NCBI RefSeq assembly: GCF_004214895.1
Contig: NZ_CP035952.1
Span: forward strand, 3,792,501-3,856,500
DNA length: 64,000 nucleotides
Direction: 5' to 3'
DNA from: Pseudomonas tructae
GTDB lineage: Bacteria > Pseudomonadota > Gammaproteobacteria > Pseudomonadales > Pseudomonadaceae
The translations under genes and the position numbers were made by a program. This document shows positions 50,160 through 62,252 of the stretch, one piece after another. Under the pieces are notes generated by a model. That model was not told where the DNA came from. It saw only the letters and a program-made list of their open reading frames with translations, and ran no database searches. Each line of letters starts with the position of its first letter. The stretch's first letter is position 1.

Positions 50160-51117
50160 TGGTCGCAACTTTGGTTATGGCCGACAACTGAGCTACGCCG
50201 GTCGGCAGGCACTGAAAGATCTGTTTGCCGGCGGCCACTTCGCCACGGTCAAAGCGCATAGCGATCGCTGGCAAGCCTTCGTGCGCTGGTGCCGGTCAAA
50301 GGACGGCCCTGGCTACAACGATGCGCGCCAGATTGATCGACAGACGCTGCAGGACTACGCCACTCACCTACGAGAGCTGATCCAGCAAGGCGAACTGTGC
50401 ATCGCCACTGCGCAAAATCGCCTAAGCAGCGTTAACCGCACTCTCGCTGCACTGCGCGGTAATCAGGATGTGAAAATTGCCAACCCGAGGCAGGCGTTGG
50501 GACAACAGCGTTCCACAATCCGCATGCGTGCACCCGATGGCCAAAACTTGCAACAGGTGCAGCGTGTGCTTGAGGCGCTGCGCGCGCAACAATATGAAAG
50601 GGTGGCCGCCATTGTTCTGTTGACCCGAACAACTGGTATGCGCCTACGCGAAGCGATCCTGGCGGACCTGCCGCGCTTGCGCCGTGAAGCCGTACTCTTA
50701 GGCCGCATCAATATCCAGGACGGTACCAAAGGCGGCCGTTCAGGGGCGTCGGCGCCACGATGGGTAATGGTCAATGATGAGGTGAAGGCGGCGCTCGAGT
50801 TGGCGCGTAAAGCATCGCCGACCGCCAGTCGCAACCTATTGGCCCCGAGCGAAACCTACGCCATGCTCCTGCAACACACCGTGCTGCCTGCTCGCGAAAT
50901 TCTGCATGAATACGGACTAAAGGGGTTTCATGATCTGCGCGCGGCCTACGCTTGCGAACGTTATGAGTACCTCACGGGCTATGCTGCGCCGGTCAACGGT
51001 GGCTACGGCTATCGCATTGACCGCAACCTTGACCAGCAAGCGCGCCAACAAATCAGCCTTGAGCTCGGCCATTACCGGGTTGACATGGTTTCGGCCTACG
51101 TCGGAGGTCGCATATGA
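50137..51117 (+). CDS. Integrase_1-type tyrosine recombinase
   Basis: 326 residues from ATG 50137 (AAGGTGAAG upstream); the frame is open upstream through the neighbouring gene and is not coding there. SAM-like N-terminal domain (SDRWQAFVRWCRSKDGPGYN), catalytic domain with TGMRLREAI (Arg), KGFHDLRAAYACERY (H-x-x-R) and ELGHYRVDMVSAYVG (His, Tyr). This second recombinase family commonly accompanies DUF3987 genes in Pseudomonas islands. Confidence 0.85.
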   Translation: MALVGRRDGRNFGYGRQLSYAGRQALKDLFAGGHFATVKAHSDRWQAFVRWCRSKDGPGYNDARQIDRQTLQDYATHLRELIQQGELCIATAQNRLSSVNRTLAALRGNQDVKIANPRQALGQQRSTIRMRAPDGQNLQQVQRVLEALRAQQYERVAAIVLLTRTTGMRLREAILADLPRLRREAVLLGRINIQDGTKGGRSGASAPRWVMVNDEVKAALELARKASPTASRNLLAPSETYAMLLQHTVLPAREILHEYGLKGFHDLRAAYACERYEYLTGYAAPVNGGYGYRIDRNLDQQARQQISLELGHYRVDMVSAYVGGRI

Positions 51118-51383
51118 CTTATCCATTCGATATGACGCTGTTTTTAAGTGGAGTCCTGACAGGCTCGCAAGCAACGCAACATCGCCACCTCAGGCAAGCC
51201 CGGCTCATGCAAGCTGCCATTGCTCAACGATGGCAACGCGACAATCCATGGGCCTGGCGGCACAAGCATGTACGCTGGTTTTTCACCGAACACCTGAAAA
51301 CCCACTCGGAAGCCAGTCGCTATTATTATCGGCTCACGATTGCATTGGTCTTAAGACGAATGGGTACCGTCTGTATGCTCTGA
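51114..51383 (+). CDS. Small element-encoded hypothetical protein
   Basis: 89 residues, basic and Trp/His-rich (RWQRDNPWAWRHKHVRWFFT). The ATG overlaps the recombinase stop (ATGA), so the two are coupled; it may assist recombination. No family recognised. It converges on the OLD-family gene with 33 bp between stops. Confidence 0.6.
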   Translation: MTYPFDMTLFLSGVLTGSQATQHRHLRQARLMQAAIAQRWQRDNPWAWRHKHVRWFFTEHLKTHSEASRYYYRLTIALVLRRMGTVCML

Positions 51384-51416
51384 CACCATCAAATTTTTAT
51401 TTATATACACAGCTAC

Positions 51417-53333
51417 TCAGTCCCTAGTCTCAGCAGTACGCAATAGTCCGTCTGTCGACAGTACTGAGATACGTTCACCTAGGAATGTTAAAACTTTGTA
51501 AAGATTCTGCAGACCTTGGGCCGAAAATACCTCAACCGACGTATCAGCTCTGTACAAGTACTCTGCCAAGATCAGGCCGTACTGAGCCTTGGTAGGTACG
51601 GAGCTCAATCCCAGGCTCTCCTGAGCAGCCTCCATGCTGTCTTTCCCCAAGAGCGCTTCCAGCGCCATTCCTTCGAACGAGGCATCGATATCTGCCAGGG
51701 TGATCACCATCTGCTCGGGCAAGATCCATTCTTCTCGATAGCGATCTCGGGCTTTTCGACCTTCCTTATCGTCATCGAGCAGAACGATGAACTTCTCGCC
51801 GCGCCCCATGAGCAAGCTGATCAGGTTACCTGACGCACTTGAGCCGACGCCTGGAATCAGGTTGAAGCACAGCTTGCCTCCTGTCCGCAATGCTGCGGCC
51901 TTGAGCGCGTAGTAATCCGAGATTCCTTCCAGGATCACGCACGGTGAAGTCCCTACAATTTCAGGAACGACATACTGCAGGCGGTCAATCACTGGCTGGA
52001 AATAGTGTGTACGGGTAGGAAAGGAATTCAGGTATTGTTTGTACTTGATCGCGTTCACTTCAGCAGGTGTGAAGTCGAGATCATAGTCCTCATCATCGCC
52101 TTGCCCTGCCGGACGGTTCTCGATGATGTAAGCCCCAGACAACCACTTCGGGTTCACCATGTGGTGGCTATGGGTTGAGTAGATGATCTTGTCGCCGCTG
52201 GCCGCCATCTTCTCGAAGTAGCCCAGCAGCTCGGCCTGAGCGCGGGAGTGCAGGTTAGCAGCAGGTTCGTCAAAGACGTAGATTTTGTGTTGATTTTCAC
52301 GTTCGAGCTTAAAGCCCGTGAGCAGCAAGAATGTGAAAAACCATCTGAAGCCGATCGATCGCTCGGCGATCTTATAGGTCGTGTCGCGGTTACTCACGAC
52401 AAACGATACGATCACTGTGGGGTCATTTGCGCCGCCGACTACCCACTTGAGGTCGACCCGTTTCGCCGTGGCATTGCGCGACAGAACGCGCCGCCAACCG
52501 CCAATCACTTCAACAGAAAGCGCGTTGGAGACCTGTTGGAAGACATTATCAATCTGGTATTTTTCTGGGCTTCGCTGGAACTTCTCATACCAATCGGCAC
52601 CGTAATTAGCCCGATACGTCTCGATAGGTCTATTCACATCCCGGTCAATATCGAAGCCAGCGAATTTTATGATGCGCTCGACAATCTCCCGATAATGCCT
52701 CTTCTCGTAACCCTCATAACCATCGGATGCGAGCGAAATTTGCTCAGGCACATTGATCAAAAACGTCGGAAAATACGCGACCTTCGGTATCGACGCCTCG
52801 ATCAGATCAGCCGTACGCTTCCAAAGATTTTCGTCTTCATTATCCGGCTGGGCATAAACCTCAAACTCCCCTTCCCCGTGTGGCCTGACCCTGAAGTCGA
52901 ACCCAAGGCTAGCAATCCTGGACTTCGGCTTACTGTTTTCGAAGCTGAACTCTCTTGCGATCTTGAAGGGTTTCGCTAGCGCCTCGGTGTCTACGTCCAA
53001 CCCAGCACGACTCACCAGGGCCTTGATCGACTCCAGATCATGCGCCTCAAGCTCAACGGTCGCAGCAATCGACACGGTGCCAGTAAATGCGCCTTTCTTG
53101 CTGGCGGGGATGAAGGTGAACTGATCTTTGTTTTCTGTACTGAAGAAGTAGAGCCTTGAAACCGACCGGTCGCTGCTCACAAACTGCGAGATGGCTTCCA
53201 ATATCGTGGTTTTGCCACTTTCATTTAGTCCAATCAGTGTCACGACTGGGTTGTCCAATCGTCCTGCCAGCTCAATTCGTGTGCTAACAATCCCTTTGTA
53301 GTTCTTTATCTCAAAATCAAGGATTTTCGACAT
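51417..53333 (-). CDS. OLD-family ATP-dependent endonuclease (AAA + TOPRIM)
   Basis: 638 residues from ATG 53333 (MSKILDFEIKNYKGI). Walker A is GLNESGKTT near residue 40. After a long insert come the ABC-signature-like region and YVFDEPAANLHSRAQ (Walker B, D-loop), then STHSHH (H-switch). A C-terminal TOPRIM domain has CVILEGISDYYALK, NLIPGVGSSA and IVLLDDDKEGRKA. OLD nucleases act in phage defence, alone or with a UvrD-like helicase (GajAB); no helicase is next to it. It is divergent from the PfkB/QueC operon across 229 bp. Confidence 0.85.
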   Translation of the reverse strand: MSKILDFEIKNYKGIVSTRIELAGRLDNPVVTLIGLNESGKTTILEAISQFVSSDRSVSRLYFFSTENKDQFTFIPASKKGAFTGTVSIAATVELEAHDLESIKALVSRAGLDVDTEALAKPFKIAREFSFENSKPKSRIASLGFDFRVRPHGEGEFEVYAQPDNEDENLWKRTADLIEASIPKVAYFPTFLINVPEQISLASDGYEGYEKRHYREIVERIIKFAGFDIDRDVNRPIETYRANYGADWYEKFQRSPEKYQIDNVFQQVSNALSVEVIGGWRRVLSRNATAKRVDLKWVVGGANDPTVIVSFVVSNRDTTYKIAERSIGFRWFFTFLLLTGFKLERENQHKIYVFDEPAANLHSRAQAELLGYFEKMAASGDKIIYSTHSHHMVNPKWLSGAYIIENRPAGQGDDEDYDLDFTPAEVNAIKYKQYLNSFPTRTHYFQPVIDRLQYVVPEIVGTSPCVILEGISDYYALKAAALRTGGKLCFNLIPGVGSSASGNLISLLMGRGEKFIVLLDDDKEGRKARDRYREEWILPEQMVITLADIDASFEGMALEALLGKDSMEAAQESLGLSSVPTKAQYGLILAEYLYRADTSVEVFSAQGLQNLYKVLTFLGERISVLSTDGLLRTAETRD

Positions 53334-53460
53334 CAGCGCACACGACCTTGTGTTGGCACGAATCGGAGCACAGCCAGGGCTATGTCTGGCCGGTTTGAAC
53401 CCTGTAGACAGTGCCCCGCCACTCAGACGCGGCCTCTTGGCAAATTGGATCCGACAGGGG

Positions 53461-53478
53461 TAGAGTGCCGGCACTCTA
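53461..53478. promoter_or_regulatory. 18-bp perfect palindrome in the divergent promoter region
   Basis: TAGAGTGCCGGCACTCTA, perfectly self-complementary, 85 bp before the first gene of the four-gene operon and 128 bp before the OLD gene start. A repressor or autoregulator site controlling both directions is likely. No regulator gene is adjacent. Confidence 0.6.
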
Positions 53479-53562
53479 GCATCAAGTCGACCGCTGTCAA
53501 CTGGCCTTGATTTGACGCCGGCCACAGTTGCGTTGGTTCACATAGGGAAGATGGGGAACGTA

Positions 53563-53904
53563 ATGTCAGGTTCTGACGGAAGGCTTTTTAGAGATTACAC
53601 AGCCGGCGCTCCAACCGAGACCGCCTGCGATACGCTGTACCTGCAGACCCAGCTTGCTTCTCCGAAGCCTGAGGTCGTGAGCGAGATCGAAGTCGGCGAT
53701 ACGCTTGGAATTGCCCTTGGTGAAATCGAAGGCAACGTCGTCGCCTGCGCATATTGGAACAGGCATATTGCCGGCGGTATTGCATCTCCCAAGGTTATTC
53801 GACTGATCGCCTGCCTCCAAAGTGGTACGAACTATTCAGCAATAGTTACGGCAAAAATGGGTGCTCAGATCTCCATCAAAATCTCGCCGATCAAGGAGGA
53901 GTGA
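53563..53904 (+). CDS. Small unknown protein, first gene of the QueC/SagB operon
   Basis: 113 residues from ATG 53563 (GGGGA five bases upstream; ATG 53551 possible). Predicted mostly beta strand: EVVSEIEVGDTLGIALGEIE, VIRLIACLQSGTNYSAIVTA, ending ISIKISPIKEE. No catalytic motif is apparent. Its stop is two bases from the next start, after AAGGAGGAG. It could be a partner, substrate or sensor for the enzymes downstream. I do not recognise a family. Confidence 0.65.
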   Translation: MSGSDGRLFRDYTAGAPTETACDTLYLQTQLASPKPEVVSEIEVGDTLGIALGEIEGNVVACAYWNRHIAGGIASPKVIRLIACLQSGTNYSAIVTAKMGAQISIKISPIKEE

Positions 53905-53906
53905 TT

Positions 53907-55118
53907 TTGATCAGACTGACTGGCGGTGTGTATTACGAGCAGTGCATGTGCCCCATATGGCAAGAGCTGTTTGGCTCAGGTGGTCGAGCTGCCACAGCGA
54001 TAGCGCGCCTTGGCGGACACGTCGCCCTGGACACATACGCGGATCGCACCGCGGAGGCCATTCTTCGTCAGAGAGCGGTGCTGGAAGGCTTTTCTGTTGC
54101 AACCCATGCCATAAACCAAAGCCTGCACTTCCGGTACACCCATGGACTTGCCAAACCGTCGATCCATCCGGTACCAGAGACCTCTTCGACGACCCTTCAA
54201 ATCACTGCCGACAATGTGGTTCGGTTTGGACTGCTCGAAGGTGACTGCGTCGTCGATGCCCGTAATGTCGTTTACGACCCACAGAGCTCCCGGCACCCCG
54301 TCCCCTTCCATGAGAATGGTTCCAAGGCTGAGCGGCTTGCGCTTGTCCTAAACAGAAGTGAAGCCGAAGCGCTCCATGGCAGTGACGAGTTGAGCGCAGC
54401 CGATTTGGCCCGGGCACTTTCGAAGTCGCAGAACGCCGAGATCGTCATCATCAAGATGGGCCCTGCCGGCGCCCTGCTATTCCATGAAGGCCAAGCGCAC
54501 CACATCCCCTCCTTCGTGACGTCGCAGGTGTGGAAGATTGGTTCGGGTGATGTGTTCGTCGCGAGCTTCGCGCACTTCTGGCTCGAAGAAGGGCTTACCC
54601 CACTCAAGGCCGCCATGCAGGCCTCACGTGCCACGGCGTACTACTGCGAGACGAAGGGCTTTGCCTCTAAAACAGAGCTAGAGACCTATCACCCCGTCGC
54701 CGCCAGCCTGCCGAAGAAATCAAAAATGGGCAGGCCTCCCCTGGTATACCTCGCCGGCCCATTCTTTTCGCTGGGACAGCTTTGGCTCATCGAGGAGGCT
54801 CGCGCCCGGCTTTTGGAAATGGGATTGAACGTGTTTTCCCCCGTCCATGACGTTGGCCACGGGCCTGCGGATGAAGTCGTGCAGAAAGATCTCGATGCGA
54901 TCCACGAATGCGACATGATGCTCGCAATCGGGGACGGCCTCGACGCTGGGACGATCTATGAGATCGGCTACGCGCGTGCACTCAAGAAGCCCGTCATCAT
55001 GTACGTGGAGAATGAGTCGGAAGAGGATCAGAAGATGATGGCCGGCTCGGGCTGCACGCTGACAAAGGACTTCGTCACCGCCATTTACCAAACCGCATGG
55101 AAGGCAGCTGAGTTATGA
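53907..55118 (+). CDS. PfkB-family kinase fused to nucleoside 2-deoxyribosyltransferase
   Basis: 403 residues from TTG 53907 (GGAGGAG at the right distance; GTG 53901 is too close to it). Residues ~1-260 are a PfkB/ribokinase domain: GSGGRAATAIARLGGHVALD and the catalytic KIGSGDVFVASFAHFWLEEG (GSGD). Residues ~275-403 are an NDT domain: VYLAGPFFSLGQLWLIEEAR, DLDAIHECDMMLAIGDGLDA, GTIYEIGYARALKKPVI with the catalytic Glu. The fusion implies base exchange or cleavage on a deoxynucleoside coupled to phosphorylation of a sugar or nucleoside. The stop overlaps the next start (ATGA). Confidence 0.82.
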   Translation: MIRLTGGVYYEQCMCPIWQELFGSGGRAATAIARLGGHVALDTYADRTAEAILRQRAVLEGFSVATHAINQSLHFRYTHGLAKPSIHPVPETSSTTLQITADNVVRFGLLEGDCVVDARNVVYDPQSSRHPVPFHENGSKAERLALVLNRSEAEALHGSDELSAADLARALSKSQNAEIVIIKMGPAGALLFHEGQAHHIPSFVTSQVWKIGSGDVFVASFAHFWLEEGLTPLKAAMQASRATAYYCETKGFASKTELETYHPVAASLPKKSKMGRPPLVYLAGPFFSLGQLWLIEEARARLLEMGLNVFSPVHDVGHGPADEVVQKDLDAIHECDMMLAIGDGLDAGTIYEIGYARALKKPVIMYVENESEEDQKMMAGSGCTLTKDFVTAIYQTAWKAAEL

Positions 55119-55717
55119 AGCGCGCCCTCCTCTTATCAGGCGGCATGGATTCACTCGCGGTGGCCTGGTGGCTGCGCCCTGAAATCGGCATCACGCTGAA
55201 CTATGGCCAGCTCGCCGCTGAGGCAGAAATCTGTGCCTCGAAGGCCATCTGCGGACAGCTCCAGATTGAGCACCATGTCATTTCCATCGACTGCCGATCG
55301 GTCGGCTCCGGCGACATGGCAGGAGGCCAGGCGGATGCCCATGCGCCTGCCAGTGACTGGTGGCCGTACCGGAACCAGATGCTCGTCACCCTGGCGGCCA
55401 TGAAAGCCATCAGCCTGGGTGTTAAAAAGCTCTACCTGGGCACCGTGAAATCCGATGGTTCCCACCGCGACGGTACTCCGGAGTTCATCGCTGCCATCAA
55501 TCAGCTGATGGTCATCCAGGAGGGTGAGATGACCGTTGAGGCGCCTGCGATCAAGTTGAGCACCACCGAGCTTGTAAGAACTGCCGGCGTGCCGTCTTCT
55601 ATGCTGGCCTGGGCTCACAGCTGTCACAAATCGAGCGTGCCGTGCGGCAATTGCCGAGGCTGCAACAAGTACTTCGAGGTCTGGCAAGAGATTGAACATG
55701 GATTGGATCACGCTTAG
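55115..55717 (+). CDS. QueC-like PP-loop enzyme (7-cyano-7-deazaguanine synthase family)
   Basis: 200 residues. PP-loop SGGMDS at residues 8-13, YRNQMLVTLAAMKAISLGVK, LGTVKSDGSHRDGTPEFIAA (the substrate loop) and the complete zinc site CHKSSVPCGNCRGC. Housekeeping QueC turns 7-carboxy-7-deazaguanine into preQ0 with ATP and ammonia. No queD, queE or queF adjoins it, and QueC homologues are recurrent parts of defence systems (Qat, type IV CBASS), so a specialised activation or conjugation of a deazaguanine is more likely here (inference). Confidence 0.85.
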   Translation: MKRALLLSGGMDSLAVAWWLRPEIGITLNYGQLAAEAEICASKAICGQLQIEHHVISIDCRSVGSGDMAGGQADAHAPASDWWPYRNQMLVTLAAMKAISLGVKKLYLGTVKSDGSHRDGTPEFIAAINQLMVIQEGEMTVEAPAIKLSTTELVRTAGVPSSMLAWAHSCHKSSVPCGNCRGCNKYFEVWQEIEHGLDHA

Positions 55718-56381
55718 TAGCCCGACGGTACTAGCTGAGCCTGGCCACTATCAGCCCTTCACCTGGCCCGATGGCACATTCCATGCGCTGCCCGAAACAG
55801 AGGATGCCGGTGACGAAGGCATCCTCAATCTTCTCGATCACAGACGCACCAGGCGAACGTTCAATGCCTTGAGTGAAGGCCAGCTGGGCCAGCTGCTGTG
55901 GCGCTGCGCGCGTACGCAATCCATTGCCGAGTCGGACTATGGCTTCGACCTGGAATTGCGACCAACGCCATCTGCCGGCGCAATGCACCCCATCCATATC
56001 CTGGTTCACCTTCCGGGTGCGTCGAACTGGAGCCGCTACGATAGTCGCCGGAACGGTCTTGTCGAGCTACCAGGATCAGCTGAAGCCTTCGCTGGATTGG
56101 AAGAGCAGTGCCATGAAGCACTGCCCGCCGCGCATGCAACGCGGTTGCTCCTGGTGGCCGAACCCGGAAAAACGTGCGCCAAATACCAGCACGGAGAAAG
56201 CCTGATCTGGCGAGACGCTGGAGCACTCTTGGCGGTCATGGCCGTGATTGCTGAAGCCTTGGACTACTCGTTTTGCCCGCTGGGGATTACGGGTGAGCCG
56301 TGGGCTGGTCGACTCGCACCTGCCGGTGTGCTCACTGGTGTCGGTGTCGCACTCGTTGGTGGGCCGACACCGCAGCGCTAG
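55698..56381 (+). CDS. SagB/ThcOx-type nitroreductase-family oxidoreductase
   Basis: 227 residues from ATG 55698, overlapping the QueC-like gene by 20 bp. Nitroreductase-fold marks are LLDHRRTRRTFN near residue 47, ELRPTPSAGAMHPIHILVHL (the SagB-type SaGa-hP signature), and FCPLGITGEPWAGRL near the C-terminus. SagB-like enzymes use FMN to oxidise azolines in modified peptides; others reduce or oxidise small heterocycles. Here the substrate may be the deazaguanine or nucleoside product of the operon. It ends 4 bp inside the convergent OGG-like gene. Confidence 0.8.
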   Translation: MDWITLSSPTVLAEPGHYQPFTWPDGTFHALPETEDAGDEGILNLLDHRRTRRTFNALSEGQLGQLLWRCARTQSIAESDYGFDLELRPTPSAGAMHPIHILVHLPGASNWSRYDSRRNGLVELPGSAEAFAGLEEQCHEALPAAHATRLLLVAEPGKTCAKYQHGESLIWRDAGALLAVMAVIAEALDYSFCPLGITGEPWAGRLAPAGVLTGVGVALVGGPTPQR

Positions 56382-57148
56382 GCGGCTTTCAAACCAGCTT
56401 GGTTCAGCAGACCGTGGACGACGGTAGGCGCAGACATCATCTGGTACCACATCAGCGCGTCGAGCTTGGAGGGGCGAACCTTAATCGCTTTGCTCAGCGC
56501 AAGAAACTCCGCTTCGAGCTTCAGGTAGTGACGCTCCACGGTGAGACCGGGGGAGAAAAAGCCAGCCAATGCCCCTGCACGCAGGATGTGGATATCCAGG
56601 ATGGCGACGTCATCGGCATCAAGCCAGTTGCGAGCAATCCAAGAGGCGGTCTTGTAGCCAATGCCTGGCAGCTCCAGCAGCCAGTCCCGAAGAGCTCGGC
56701 CAGAATGAAGAGGAACACCCCCTAAGGCCAAGGCTGTGAGTGCTAAATGGAGGTAACGCGCCTTCTGTTTGGCAAAGCGGTAGCGCACTGAGCGGCTACC
56801 GATTTTCAGTGGGAGGGTCAGCCACTCTTGCAGCTGCTCCTCACTAGGTACCTTAGTGTCAAATGCACCGAGGTTTCTCAGGTGGGCGAAGGCCGCCAAT
56901 CCGACACTAGCCGGGATTCCGTGGCCACCCAGTAGGCACGCTCCGACCTCTTCAGCCAGGGTGGCGCCAAGCTTGTAGTTGAGAGGCTCAGGCTCTTGCT
57001 CGTTTGCCCACACCTGGTACGCCCAGTACGCCGGTGTCGGGAAAGCTTCGATCAAACCCCATGCAACACCCGGGAGCACTTCGCTCAGAGCGTCTGGGAA
57101 ATCGCGGCTGTAGATCTTAGAGTCTACGAACACAACACCGTTCTGCAT
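56378..57148 (-). CDS. OGG-fold HhH DNA glycosylase-like protein
   Basis: 256 residues from ATG 57148, whose ATG overlaps the stop of the methylase gene (TAATG) and has GGAGG upstream. Helix-hairpin-helix LLELPGIGYKTASWIARNWL with the catalytic-type Lys, then DDVAILDIHILRAGALAG with the conserved Asp. This resembles the OGG-fold proteins of type IV CBASS rather than housekeeping MutM/OGG. It would recognise or excise a modified purine. The convergent overlap with the SagB-like gene indicates tight packing of one locus. Confidence 0.8.
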   Translation of the reverse strand: MQNGVVFVDSKIYSRDFPDALSEVLPGVAWGLIEAFPTPAYWAYQVWANEQEPEPLNYKLGATLAEEVGACLLGGHGIPASVGLAAFAHLRNLGAFDTKVPSEEQLQEWLTLPLKIGSRSVRYRFAKQKARYLHLALTALALGGVPLHSGRALRDWLLELPGIGYKTASWIARNWLDADDVAILDIHILRAGALAGFFSPGLTVERHYLKLEAEFLALSKAIKVRPSKLDALMWYQMMSAPTVVHGLLNQAGLKAA

Positions 57149-57825
57149 TACAGTGCCTCCTGAGCGGAGCCATAGGTCTGCGTGATCCAGTGCAGGAAAT
57201 CGCTGCGCTCTACCGGATCCATGGCAGCAACACGATCGCGGAGCCGGGACTGACGTCGGGCAATGTTCTGCCGTTCGCGAAACGTGTCGCCTAAGTAACG
57301 ACTGTCGTGAAGTTCCACTGGGGCAGAGTAGTTCATCCAGACGCATTCCTCCCTGACATCTGTGTGCGTCTTCGCCGTAAACGTCACCTTCCTCCATCCT
57401 TGGAGGGTTTCGTTGTACAAGGCACTGTCGTAACCGGAGATCATAACCTTGCACGGGACGCCGCACAGCGTACGTAGCAGTTGCTCATGCTGGGACTGGT
57501 CATATTCGTAGCGGTAGATCTTGGCGCGACGCCGGGTCTGTGTGACATACGGTGGGTCAGAATAGATCAGCTCGCTACCGTCGTATGAAAAGCTGCTCAG
57601 GTAGTTTGAAGCATCATCCTGGATGAGCTCAAAGCTCTCAACCTGGTGCTCAGCCCAAGCGTCGTGAACAGCGGGATCTATATCGACACCGATGTTTCGG
57701 GCAGCAGGTTTTTTGTGGCGCAGGACAGCGCCCGCGCCCAAGTGCGTCTCGATGTAGGTCTGATGCGGAGGCATCAGGTTGATCAAGCGCTGGTAGCACT
57801 TGCCTTTCCCGCCTGGATATCTCAT
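57148..57825 (-). CDS. D12-class (Dam-like) DNA adenine methyltransferase
   Basis: 225 residues from ATG 57825 (GTG 57831 also in frame). Motif I region MRYPGGKGKCYQRLINLMPP, NIGVDIDPAVHDAW, and the catalytic SDPPYVTQT near residue 118. Short for a D12 methylase (Dam is ~270). It may mark self DNA or act with the glycosylase downstream. It lies 70 bp after hsdR in the same orientation, so it may be transcribed with the type I system. Confidence 0.85.
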   Translation of the reverse strand: MRYPGGKGKCYQRLINLMPPHQTYIETHLGAGAVLRHKKPAARNIGVDIDPAVHDAWAEHQVESFELIQDDASNYLSSFSYDGSELIYSDPPYVTQTRRRAKIYRYEYDQSQHEQLLRTLCGVPCKVMISGYDSALYNETLQGWRKVTFTAKTHTDVREECVWMNYSAPVELHDSRYLGDTFRERQNIARRQSRLRDRVAAMDPVERSDFLHWITQTYGSAQEAL

Positions 57826-57894
57826 GCACACATCATCGTCAAAAGTGACGATGATGTCAATGAAAGCATAGAACCCTCCCCCCGAAATTCTCTC

Positions 57895-60800
57895 TTAGAT
57901 CTGCCCACCTACACCTTTAAACTTCTCAACAAATGCAGCGATTTTCTGGAATACGCTCTGTTTTTTAGTCAAATACTGCGGGTTCAGCGGGCTCATCTTG
58001 GGCAGAACAGAATTCAGTTCCGTACCGCTATCGCTGGCGAATTCCCGCTTCAGCGATGTGGTGATATAGCGCCTAGCTGCCTCATCGTTAAGGTTCTCTG
58101 TGACAATCAACTCCTGCACTTCGTGGTGCTGCTTCTTTTGGGCAAAGGTGAAGAAGGCATCAACCACGCTGGCCTTGTCGCCAGTTTGATCGAGATCAGT
58201 CATATTGATGAAGTCGACCAGTAGGCTCTCTTTTGCGCGGTTGCCAAGGCTTGCCCGGATCACACGTCGCACCTCATCCACCAGCTCCGACTTACTTCTG
58301 ATTTTCTTGTTGTGCTCGAAGATCAGCTCCAGGATGTAGTCCAGATTGATTTCCTGAGACTTCAAAAGATCAATCTCAAAAACCACATCATCCCAGTCGA
58401 TAGTGGACTTTTCTTTCTCAGCCCCTGCTTTTTCACGGCGTAGCCAGTCGCGCACATCGTTGTAGGTTGAACGGTAGTCCTGAACCTTCCGCTCGGTTGG
58501 GAGCGTGATGGCCTGCAGTGAAATCAGATCATCATCGCTGAGGTAGTGTTTGGCCTTAAACGCCTCCACCGCAGCTGAGTCGGCCATATCGAGGGTTTGC
58601 AACTCTTTCAGGCTGGCGAACTCGTCATAGTTCTGCAGCACGTTTTCTACACGTAAGTACTCGCCAAACAACTTGGCGAAGGCCTTTTTGTCGGCCTCCG
58701 TCTCAATGGCGGAAGGGTTCGGGAAGCGTGCTTCCAATTCCTTTACCACATCCATGAACCCCCTACGCGATTCACCAGTGGCCGCATCCGTGAAACCTTC
58801 CATGTAATCTTTGTAGCTCTTCTCCAGCACCACGTTCTTGGTGTTCGTGTCACCGAAGATTGTGATGGCGTCGATGGTCGCCTGTTCCAAATCGCGGAAG
58901 GTGACGATATTGCCGAAGGTTTTAGTGGCGTCAAAGATGCGGTTGGTGCGTGAGTAGGCCTGCATCAACCCGTGGTAGCGCAGGTTCTTGTCGACAAAGA
59001 GAGTGTTGAGCGTAGGGGCATCAAAACCGGTCAGGAACATGCCCACAACGATGAGCAGGTCAATTTCCTTGGCTTTGACCTGCTTAGCCAAATCGCGGTA
59101 GTAGTTCTGAAAGCCTTGGCTGTCTACGCTGAAGTTGGTCTTGAAGAGCGTGTTGTAGTCGGTGATGGCCGAACTCAAGAACTCCTTGGCGCTGCTATTC
59201 ATGGCAGATACATCAAAGCTCTCGTCTTGGATGTCGCCTATCGCGTCCTGCTCCTCGTTGGCCGCGAACGAGAAGATGGTCGCCACCTTAAGCGGCTTGT
59301 CGCTGTTCTTTTGAAGCTCACAAAAACATTCGTAATACAGCTTGGCTGCATCCACGCTGCTGACGGCAAACATGGCATTGAAACCCTTGTTGCCTGCGTG
59401 GAGGCGGTGGGTTTTTTGTCGGAAGTTGTTCAGAATGTACTGGGTAATCTCGCGAATGCGAACCGGGTGCAGCAGGGCTTGCTTGTTCTCCGCTGCACTG
59501 AGTTTCTTCTCGTCCTGCTCGGTCTCGATGACCTTGAACTGCGGACGCACATCGTTGTAGTCCACCTTGAACTTCAATACCTTCTCGTCGCGGATCGCAT
59601 CGGTGATCACGTACGAGTGCAGCTGACGGCCAAATACGTCGGCGGTGGTCTCGGCACCCAAGGCATTATCAGGGAAGATAGGCGTGCCGGTGAAGCCGAA
59701 CTGGTAGAACCTTTTGAATTTTTTCTTCAGATTCCTCTGGGCTTCGCCAAACTGACTGCGGTGGCATTCATCAAAAATGAACACTACCTGCTTGCAGTAG
59801 ATGGGTAAATCAGCCTCGCTCTTCATCAGGTTGTTGAGCTTCTGGATTGTGGTAACGACGATCTTGTTGTCGTCCTTCTCCAGGTTACGCTTCAGGCCTG
59901 CCGTGCTGTCCGAGCCATTCACGCTGTCCGGTGAAAAGCGTTGGTATTCCTTCATGGTCTGGTAGTCCAGATCCTTGCGGTCCACCACGAAGAACACCTT
60001 GTCGATAAAGTCCAGCTCGGTAGTCAGGCGCGCTGCCTTGAAACTGGTCAGTGTCTTGCCGCTGCCGGTGGTATGCCAGATGAAGCCGCCGCTTTCCGTG
60101 CTGCTCCAGTTTTTGGCCTGGTAGCTGCCTTTGATCTTCCACAGAATACGTTCCGTAGCGGCGATCTGGTAAGGCCGCATCACCAGCAGCGTGTTGTTGA
60201 CGTCGAAGACCGAGTAGTGCAGCAGAACATTGAGCAGCGTATGCTTTTGAAAGAAGGTTGCCGTAAAGTCCTTCAGATCCTTGATTAACGTATTGTCCGC
60301 CCCCGCCCAGTTCATGGTGAAGTCGAAGCTGTTCTTATTGCGATGTGTGGTGTTGGCAAAGTAGCGGCTGTCGGTGCCGTTGGAGATCACGAACAGCTGC
60401 AGATACTTGAATAAGGATTGCTCGCCATTGAAGCTTTCCTTGCTGTAGCGGTGCACCTGATTGAAGGCCTCACGGATTGCTACACCCCGCTTCTTCAGCT
60501 CCACCTGTACCAGCGGCAGGCCATTGACCAGAATCGTGACGTCATAGCGGTTGGCGTGACTACCTATCTGCTCAAACTGCTTGATCACCTGTACCTTGTT
60601 GCGGGTAATATTTTTCTTGTCCAACAGATATATGTTCTGAATGCGCCCATCATCAAAAATAAAATCGTGAATGTAGTCGTCGTGAATCTTGCGAGTCTTC
60701 TCAACGATGCCATCGCTGGATTTGTCCAGCCAAGTCTCTACAAAGCGCAGCCACTCGCCGTCAGTGAACTGCATGTTATTCAGGCTTTGCAGTTGCAAGC

Positions 60801-60993
60801 GCACATTGGCCAGTAATAGTCCTGGTTTGTTTAGGTCTTCCAGGTATTCATAGCCTTGATTGACCAGATCCTGGACTAACTCGCGCTCAAGATCACCTTC
60901 GCTCTGGTAGCTGTCTGCGCCCTTCCAGTCCTGGACGTATTTATCCAAGACAATGTAGCTTTTCGACTCAGCAATTGGACTGTATTCGATCAT
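57895..60993 (-). CDS. hsdR: Type I restriction endonuclease subunit R
   Basis: 1032 residues. N-terminal PD-(D/E)xK nuclease with [19 protein letters not shown], then SF2 translocase motifs: [18 protein letters not shown] (Walker A), [13 protein letters not shown] (DECH), GFTGTPIF, and [21 protein letters not shown]-terminal helical region binds HsdM. Cleaves DNA at a distance after ATP-driven translocation. The ATG overlaps the stop of the AAA gene (60990-60993). Confidence 0.94.
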
Positions 60994-62252
60994 GTGACTT
61001 TTCCCTGCCCAAATCGATAATTCTCGACAACATATGTGACCAGCTTTTCCAAAACTTTCTTCTCTTCAGGCTTCAAGGGCGCCACCTCTTCGGCCGCGTG
61101 TTTCGAATGGCTTGAGAAGTTAACAATCCGCTTTGCATAAGAGTTGGATAGACCATCATCTGCTTCCGGCAAAAGATGCTCCCACCTTTTGTACCCAAGA
61201 AACGTTGCCGTTTTTTCTAAAATATTACGAAGCAAATTGAAGTGATACTTATCGACTTGCCCGCTTTTAATGGCTGCCTCAAGCTGTGACAACAAGTGCA
61301 GATGATATGCAAACGGAGAGTCATTTGGCTGCTCCACTAGATGAAGACTGCCGTCCTCATTCTTCTCCAAGCGAGATTTGCTGAACCACTTAGATTTCCA
61401 GCTGTAGCGCTCATTTTTTTCATCACTACCGAATTCATTACAAAGAACATTAAAGAATACTGGGCTATGAGTTGTAATTATGAAATTAACACTGGACTTG
61501 TTTAATTTAACAAGTTGAGCCAAGTCCACAGCCAGCTGAATTAAATGATTATCATCCAATGAACTGACAGGGTCATCAATGAATACGTACTCAAGGTTGT
61601 CAAATGGTGTAGGCTCAGGATAATCAGGCTGAACATCGTTTAGAGTAAAAATCGCTTGTTCAAGCAACGTATAAAAAACACTCCAGATAAAGTTACATTC
61701 CTCACCCTTGGAGATTTTTAGATTCCCTGTGCGCTCATCATTTCCTCCTTCAAGTGAAAAAGTCACCTCCGAAAACGCATTGACTGCCACCTCTTGGCCG
61801 CTCTTATTTCTGAGCACATACTCTTCGTTGAATCGAGGCGTGAGCTTGTCGTTGGTGTAACGCTGAAAGTTCGTAACAATATTCCGATCCTGGCCTTGAT
61901 CTTCCAGCACCCATTTAGTGAATGAGTTGGGTTGGATTTTCAGCTTTGGATCGGCGTCACCATTCAAATCGTTATCCCAATAGAATAAGTCTTCGGTAAA
62001 CGCGCTGTAATATAGAATCTTTTTCTTGCCTAATTCTGACTGCTGGCCATCATCACCCGCCATTTTGGGGGCAATCAAATCTTTCAGCGCCCGCGACAAG
62101 CGGGTCTTCCCCGTGCCATTGAAGGCGTAGATAAGTTGGACCTTTGGAAGGGGCCTAACTTCCTCTACAACTTTTATTGTTTCGGGAACAGTTTTTTTAA
62201 CCGTCTTCGGAGTACTCAGTTGCTTGGCGATGTCTCTGAGCGTCGTGCTCAT
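60990..62252 (-). CDS. PrrC-like AAA ATPase, candidate anticodon nuclease
   Basis: 420 residues (PrrC of E. coli is 396). Walker A AFNGTGKT at 43-50, ABC-type Walker B/D-loop [13 protein letters not shown] near 224-236, H-switch TTHSPV near 260. The C-terminal ~100 residues contain Arg342-x3-Glu346 (RNILE) and His382 (SSHSKH), the order and spacing of the PrrC catalytic triad Arg320-Glu324-His356. It lies between hsdS and hsdR, the EcoprrI arrangement in which PrrC is held silent by the type I complex and cleaves tRNA-Lys when phage inhibits restriction. Activity is inferred. Confidence 0.68.

Follow-up and report, generated by a model that had tools for sequence, protein, structure and literature searches.

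A QueC-family gene module proposed to attach a deazaguanine-type base to a small glycine-tailed protein in anti-phage defence

A module of six genes lies on the Pseudomonas tructae chromosome within the 64,000-nucleotide stretch analysed here (NZ_CP035952.1, positions 3,792,501-3,856,500; hereafter the window), and encodes a small Gly-tailed protein, a PfkB-type kinase fused to a nucleoside 2-deoxyribosyltransferase (PfkB-NDT), a QueC-like enzyme, a relative of SagB-type dehydrogenases, an OGG-type glycosylase, and an adenine methylase. We propose, with a probability of roughly 0.55, that the QueC-family enzyme couples a 7-deazaguanine-type base to the small protein, in what would be the third QueC-based tail-conjugation anti-phage system after the type IV cyclic oligonucleotide-based anti-phage signalling system (CBASS) and Qat. 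The module itself is real, widespread, and mobile. The case for the proposal is built from sequence—that is, from the composition of the module, the tail, the catalytic residues, the pattern of SagB occurrence, and the defence-rich neighbours—together with a predicted HIRAN-like body for the small protein, and it is from these that we infer a mechanism.

The tailed protein and the QueC-like enzyme

The small protein (113 residues; window positions 53563 to 53904, plus strand) starts with MSGSDGRL, and its flexible tail is followed by a predicted HIRAN-like beta domain; it is the proposed substrate of the QueC-like enzyme. The initial annotation rightly placed a gene for a small protein here, but its start at 53461 has to give way to the ATG at 53563, which is preceded by GGGGA five bases 5′ of it. 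An M-[STGC]-G start, usually with a Gly-rich tail after it, was found in 78 of 80 genes (77 with ATG and one with TTG), in a check that accepted every start codon with a small residue and then Gly after it and that included near-copies (50 groups by the first 12 residues). Shuffling of the codons before the domain gave, on average, a chance of 0.11 per gene, or about 9 of 80 expected versus the 78 observed; the exceptions are L047 and L069 (MSSG), locus numbers with the prefix L being those of our survey. Among 43 database homologues with starts as annotated, 36 begin with [MV]-[SG]-G (28 MSG, 7 MGG, and 1 VGG), and the other seven comprise two that start four residues earlier (MGNVMSG), one with an upstream extension before MGGSGG, one MTQ, and three short proteins; six database tails start with MGGSGG. 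All eight genes from viral contigs also have the M-[STGC]-G start. In an alignment of 33 small proteins, M1, G3, C22, G71, C84, and A93 are invariant; its start codons were chosen by motif, and the 80-gene and annotated-start checks are less biased. These N-termini lend support to the earlier suggestion that a base is attached to a protein, with the M-S-G tail of the small protein as the candidate substrate.

The body of the small protein is predicted to adopt a HIRAN-like (DNA-binding) fold. Membership of the HIRAN family by sequence was rejected, since no sequence-level similarity was found (none of the 33 small proteins matches PF08797 at E values up to 1) and the likeness is one of predicted fold only; no sequence relatives that hold were found among known families. 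Unlike the HIRAN domain of HLTF/Rad5, the module protein is free-standing and carries a Gly-rich tail.

The QueC-like enzyme (55115 to 55717, plus strand; PF06508, 7e-25), the proposed N-terminal base ligase, is of a published type. The QueC/PfkB-NDT pair corresponds to 'Cluster 4' of Libby et al. (2026), for which purine salvage was suggested (PMC13329287), so that the initial annotation of the system as undescribed does not stand for this pair. The zinc motif printed for Cluster 4, CH(x)5CxxCxGCxK, is present in the window protein as CHKSSVPCGNCRGCNK, which supplies the four C-terminal Cys, alongside SGGMDS; by this motif and by a PF00294-PF05014 neighbour in 53/53 loci, the proteins are the same as those described in the main text of that paper. 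The words 'nitroreductase', 'glycosylase', and 'HIRAN' do not occur in that main text, the supplement being outside the scope of the search (PMC13329287), and among the matches listed from PMC, which included the Cluster 4, CBASS, and Qat papers, there was nothing on the whole module, the scope of that search excluding most subscription papers and supplements.

Residue counts here and below derive from alignments of 27-42 rows per protein. Across 40 aligned QueC-like proteins, two of them from a sister system described below, there is no variation in SGGxDS, Tyr30, Glu38, PxRN, Asp119, or the four Cys. The motif in the loop is YGQ(x)5E, with Tyr30, Gly31, and Glu38 in 40/40 and Gln32 in 37/40; the printed Cluster 4 motif, YGQ(x)6E, probably differs only in counting. 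The spacing is that of Y/FxQ(x)5E, printed for Cap9 (PMC13329287), and the base-recognizing Asp is likewise kept. The marks of canonical QueC are absent: the His of YxQxHxxE is missing, and in 37/40 proteins His replaces the Tyr of YPDC, with the Asp retained. QatC, in contrast, has Thr for both the Tyr and the Asp of YPDC. Profile matches in the PDB were to QueC 2pg3 (3e-21), Cap9 9nto (1e-18), and QueC 3bl5 (6e-16). A GSG[DE]xxG stretch (Gly64 40/40, Ser65 32/40, Gly66 38/40) is also common to Cap9 9nto, a comparison with one Cap9 only that was not used. The host genome carries a separate canonical QueC (271 bits) beside a QueE-like gene; therefore, the window copy is not the housekeeping one.

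Cap9 places a base on Gly2 of the MGGS tail of type IV CBASS CD-NTases (PMC13279940; tail system, PMC11996544), and in QatB, with its MGTS tail, Gly2 is needed and modification by a QueC-family enzyme is thought likely (PMC13279940). The module resembles type IV CBASS, as described in those sources, in pairing a QueC-family enzyme with a partner having a small-residue/Gly N-terminus, some module tails being exactly MGGS; it differs in having no CD-NTase, in the predicted HIRAN-like fold of the tailed protein, in having NDT-PfkB instead of TGT, and in the addition of SagB. With qatABCD, on the same sources, it has in common a QueC-family enzyme whose partner carries a long, flexible N-terminal tail bearing a conserved small-residue motif (MGTS in QatB), but no QatA or QatD is found among the module proteins, the module QueC is short, and the partner fold differs. 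A search with PDLC00911 found no further Cap9 proteins in 398 genomes at 1e-25.

The accompanying enzymes

The relative of SagB-type flavin mononucleotide-dependent dehydrogenases (55698 to 56381, plus strand), for which we propose a role as an azoline oxidase with the tail as its substrate, matches the Pfam nitroreductase family (E 0.03) and TIGR03605 (4e-12; 46 bits against the curated cut-off of 78.4) below the cut-off in both cases. In structure it matches the azoline oxidase ThcOx best, its fold is nearest to azoline oxidases, and its best matches both in sequence and in structure are azoline oxidases (ThcOx/CyaGox, BmdC, and McbC). Work on McbC reportedly identified a Lys-Tyr pair before the last helix region in SagB-type dehydrogenases; in the module alignment Tyr163 is kept in 27/27 and Lys162 in 17/27. 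The nature of residue 2 follows the presence of SagB: it is Ser or Thr in all 36 distinct tails with SagB, versus 7 Ser and 6 Gly/Cys without it (Fisher p 1.2e-4, with the loci without M-x-G, L047 and L069, dropped and kinship ignored). Every SagB-containing module whose tail can be read from sequence thus has Ser or Thr as its second residue. In L061 (Moraxella), a gene annotated as an anti-phage dGTPase overlaps QueC in the usual SagB slot, and restriction-endonuclease-like genes lie directly after QueC (L071:6588-7307 and L074:6588-7310) or after SagB (L069:7306-8388).

The resemblance of SagB to azoline oxidases, with a small Gly/Ser-rich protein encoded beside the enzymes, could also suggest azole peptide biosynthesis, in which QueC would serve as cyclodehydratase and the small protein would give rise to a secreted azole peptide. 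However, known SagB-type azoline oxidases have a YcaO partner, and no YcaO or transporter family was matched among the module proteins of the window; furthermore, the small protein has as its body a conserved predicted domain, not a peptide that could be cleaved, and in the sister system a TIR protein takes its place. We consider this explanation very improbable. Under tail conjugation, the proposed substrate of SagB is instead the N-terminal Ser of a folded protein.

The PfkB-NDT gene (53907 to 55118, plus strand; PF00294, 5e-14; PF05014, 2e-18) starts with TTG, with AAGGAGGA ahead of it, and the close database relatives P0002-P0006 have 403 residues. Asp215 of PfkB is kept in 42/42 proteins and Glu352 of NDT in 39/42; the three without it are the sister-type L075 and, from L049 and L055, the second copy of each tandem pair. 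A second pair of small-protein and PfkB-NDT genes follows QueC in L049, L050, L052, L053, L055, and L118, and partially in L051; in L033, PfkB-NDT is broken into two frames.

The OGG-type helix-hairpin-helix N-glycosylase (56378 to 57148, minus strand; PF22175, 1.6e-12) keeps Lys166 and Asp185 in 34/34 proteins, and its nearest PDB profile match is the N-glycosylase/DNA lyase 3fhf (2e-21). OGG is also a part of type IV CBASS. The sixth gene encodes a D12-class adenine methylase (57148 to 57825, minus strand; PF02086, 6e-8; PADLOC MTase_II, 2e-26); it is absent from 23/53 genome loci and therefore looks accessory. The substrates of NDT-PfkB and OGG that appear in what follows are ones that we infer.

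These enzymes bear on an alternative, DNA modification, in which QueC, NDT, and PfkB would make a deazapurine deoxynucleotide for incorporation into DNA, OGG would remove it, the methylase would mark self, and the small protein would act as a guide. NDT and a nucleoside-type kinase could indeed yield a modified deoxynucleotide, and both the conserved OGG active site and the DNA-binding-like fold predicted for the small protein are in keeping with this. Against it stand the lack of TGT/DpdA or a nucleotide diphosphate kinase in the module and the frequent lack of the methylase, and it offers no account of SagB or of the invariant N-terminus. We judge it quite unlikely.

In the tail-conjugation mechanism that we propose, Met would be removed, and the QueC enzyme would activate a deazapurine carboxylate (or nitrile) with ATP and join it to the N-terminal amine. 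The Ser/Thr hydroxyl may then close an azoline, which SagB would oxidize to an azole; an oxazoline can also arise from a nitrile and an N-terminal Ser. NDT-PfkB would add deoxyribose to the base and phosphorylate it, leaving the tail with a nucleotide-like head. The HIRAN-like body would bring this head to DNA ends or to intermediates of phage replication, and OGG would remove the base again or act on marked DNA. A more specific version, hybrid azole/nucleotide immunity, would have QueC fuse deazaguanine to Ser2, a second ATP step (the preQ0-nitrile step) close the oxazoline, SagB convert it to the oxazole, and NDT-PfkB generate a protein-bound deoxynucleotide delivered to phage DNA ends by the HIRAN-like sensor. 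On that version, which in its entirety seems to us rather unlikely, Gly2 modules would be without SagB because no azoline can form.

Distribution, neighbourhood, and the base

A search of genome contigs with the window QueC protein alone, biased to relatives of the query, gave 53 loci, all of which have the small protein and PfkB-NDT; the co-occurrence is therefore more than chance, and the expectation that these genes travel together across unrelated genomes was borne out. OGG is present in 50/53, SagB in 42/53, and the methylase in 30/53. The nearest locus is L006 of Pseudomonas fulva, with a 98% identical QueC. The 15 plasmid loci of the window type all have the small protein and PfkB-NDT, with OGG in 10, SagB in 8, and the methylase in 3. 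Hosts include Pseudomonadota, Bacteroidota, a verrucomicrobial metagenome-assembled genome (MAG), Synechocystis, and haloarchaea (plasmids). OGG lies either downstream on the opposite strand or upstream on the same strand. In haloarchaeal L060, L070, and L072, the small protein is longer (211-362 residues), with MGGG or MCGG starts, and no SagB or OGG was found in the available stretches. The spread is patchy: a PfkB-NDT family gene occurs in 11/199 genomes of the window's genus (3 of the 11 of the sister type) and in 7/398 of its phylum (1 of the 7), its own genome being counted in both. Viral contigs hold at least 80 QueC relatives; among the matches listed, 8 are close, 7 of them with the small protein and PfkB-NDT. 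In a phage collection, 14 records were matched, none covering 80% of PfkB-NDT. A Martelella alba locus is almost identical to one of Yersinia vastinensis (L030 and L031), reflecting recent transfer or a mislabelled record.

In the window, the open frames of all six genes were confirmed and, with the domain matches, agree with the intact locus described at first: four plus-strand genes converge on the minus-strand OGG/methylase pair, with a 4-bp overlap between SagB and OGG. Upstream lie a DUF3987 gene, an integrase gene, and an OLD/AriA-like ATPase gene with weak TOPRIM matches, and downstream a type I restriction-modification operon, as the initial annotation had it for the OLD-type gene and the operon. 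A PrrC-like anticodon-nuclease gene lies between HsdR and HsdS (60990-62252; PADLOC PrrC, 4e-141). No Rfam RNA was found in window positions 51000-58500, and no tRNA in the window. The window QueC (5e-17) and methylase match PADLOC-DB 2.0.0 models, whereas the small protein, PfkB-NDT, SagB, and OGG match none at 0.01.

The defence setting expected from these flanks extends to the other loci. At 1e-15, 132 PADLOC families were matched by 112 and 122 by 114 of the neighbour proteins (226 proteins of at least 230 residues, one representative per cluster), versus 20 by 100 control proteins, the counts being of families and not of proteins; the controls were 100 of 150 open reading frames, unclustered, from 14 of 20 stretches at round coordinates in related genomes. 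Among the most frequent matches listed were Gabija, IetAS, DRT3, BrxL, ThsB, type I and IV restriction, cyclases, and dGTPase, and plasmid records near the module hold multiubiquitin/ThiF, TIR, restriction-endonuclease, and dGTPase genes. By its neighbourhood, the module is probably an anti-phage defence system. dGTPase genes adjoin the module in nine loci (L014, L015, L016, L029, L030, L061, and L064, in one cluster; L071 and L073, by annotation), and multiubiquitin/ThiF/DUF6527 sets adjoin it on two unrelated plasmids (L059:1273-4081 and L073:7488-9785).

As to the base, canonical QueC was found in 26/32 host genomes. In the six hosts without it (L032, L041, L045, L056, L057, and L058; three MAGs), no full-length QueE was found by a single-QueE query or a QueE profile. 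In controls, the single QueE gave matches in 10/10 hosts and the profile full-length matches in 12/13; the exception, L034/G620, has canonical QueC but no full-length QueE, so the profile can miss some. Home-made 7-carboxy-7-deazaguanine (CDG) is unlikely to be the base in the six hosts, for which a salvaged deazapurine such as preQ0, or something else, is possible, and the case for CDG as a sure substrate is weakened by these 6 of 32 hosts. A VUT-family (YhhQ-type) transporter occurs in 6/6 hosts without canonical QueC versus 5/10 others. On a Roseivivax plasmid, a VUT-family gene annotated with queuosine salvage lies 3′ of the module (L065:7311-7850); as a module part the transporter was rejected, since it adjoins this one locus only and was not found beside the other loci searched.

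The transporter counts, including the plasmid gene beside the module, favour the published suggestion of purine or deazapurine salvage for Cluster 4 (PMC13329287), with which the domain functions, fitting nucleoside metabolism, also agree: NDT-PfkB would recover modified nucleosides, QueC would edit the base, OGG and SagB would process it, and the small protein would be a scaffold. Salvage, however, fits poorly with a patchy spread over chromosomes, plasmids, and viral contigs amid defence-rich neighbours, gives the conserved Gly-rich N-terminal tail no role, and sits uneasily with a SagB slot taken by a dGTPase in L061 and by restriction-endonuclease-like genes in L071 and L074. We regard it as unlikely.

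A sister system and the meaning of tail conjugation

Six sister loci (L062, L075, and L099-L102), found on Rhizobiaceae plasmids, in three genomes of the same genus as the window, and in one further genome, encode a PfkB-NDT relative, a TIR-TGT protein, OGG, QueC, and then a TIR protein. The TIR-protein gene lies directly after QueC, and its product starts with MGGGGGGNW, MGGGSSGSW, or MGGSS[ST]GGW. The NDT motif residues Asp328 and Gly348-Thr349 are lost in L062 and L075, and Pfam finds PfkB alone in L075. The L075 fusion protein has TIR_2 and TGT matches, its only PDB sequence match being Cap10 9ntn (1.4e-5), and in L101 the PADLOC TGT and QueC models match at 6e-24 and 6e-30, respectively, the latter compared with 5e-17 for the window's QueC. 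The sister QueC proteins form one clade (100/99, five rows), although the tree bootstrap is unsettled. In L102, the TIR-TGT gene is interrupted by an insertion element, as judged by eye. The absence of CD-NTase, TGT, QatA, and TatD reported initially holds for seven window proteins (51417-57831), among which Pfam gave no such family match; for TGT it does not extend to the sister system in other genomes, with its TIR-TGT fusion. The sister system forms a link between type IV CBASS and the module of the window; NDT in the window's module and TGT in the sister loci, both base-exchange enzyme folds, may replace each other.

If tail conjugation is correct, N-terminal base conjugation would be a general strategy rather than a quirk of CBASS and Qat, with a core of a QueC-family enzyme, a base-exchange enzyme, and OGG paired with varied tailed proteins: a CD-NTase, QatB, a HIRAN-like protein, or a TIR protein. 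Cluster 4 of the QueC family would gain a function, and immune protein modification would come to include azole chemistry and a nucleoside transferase-kinase.

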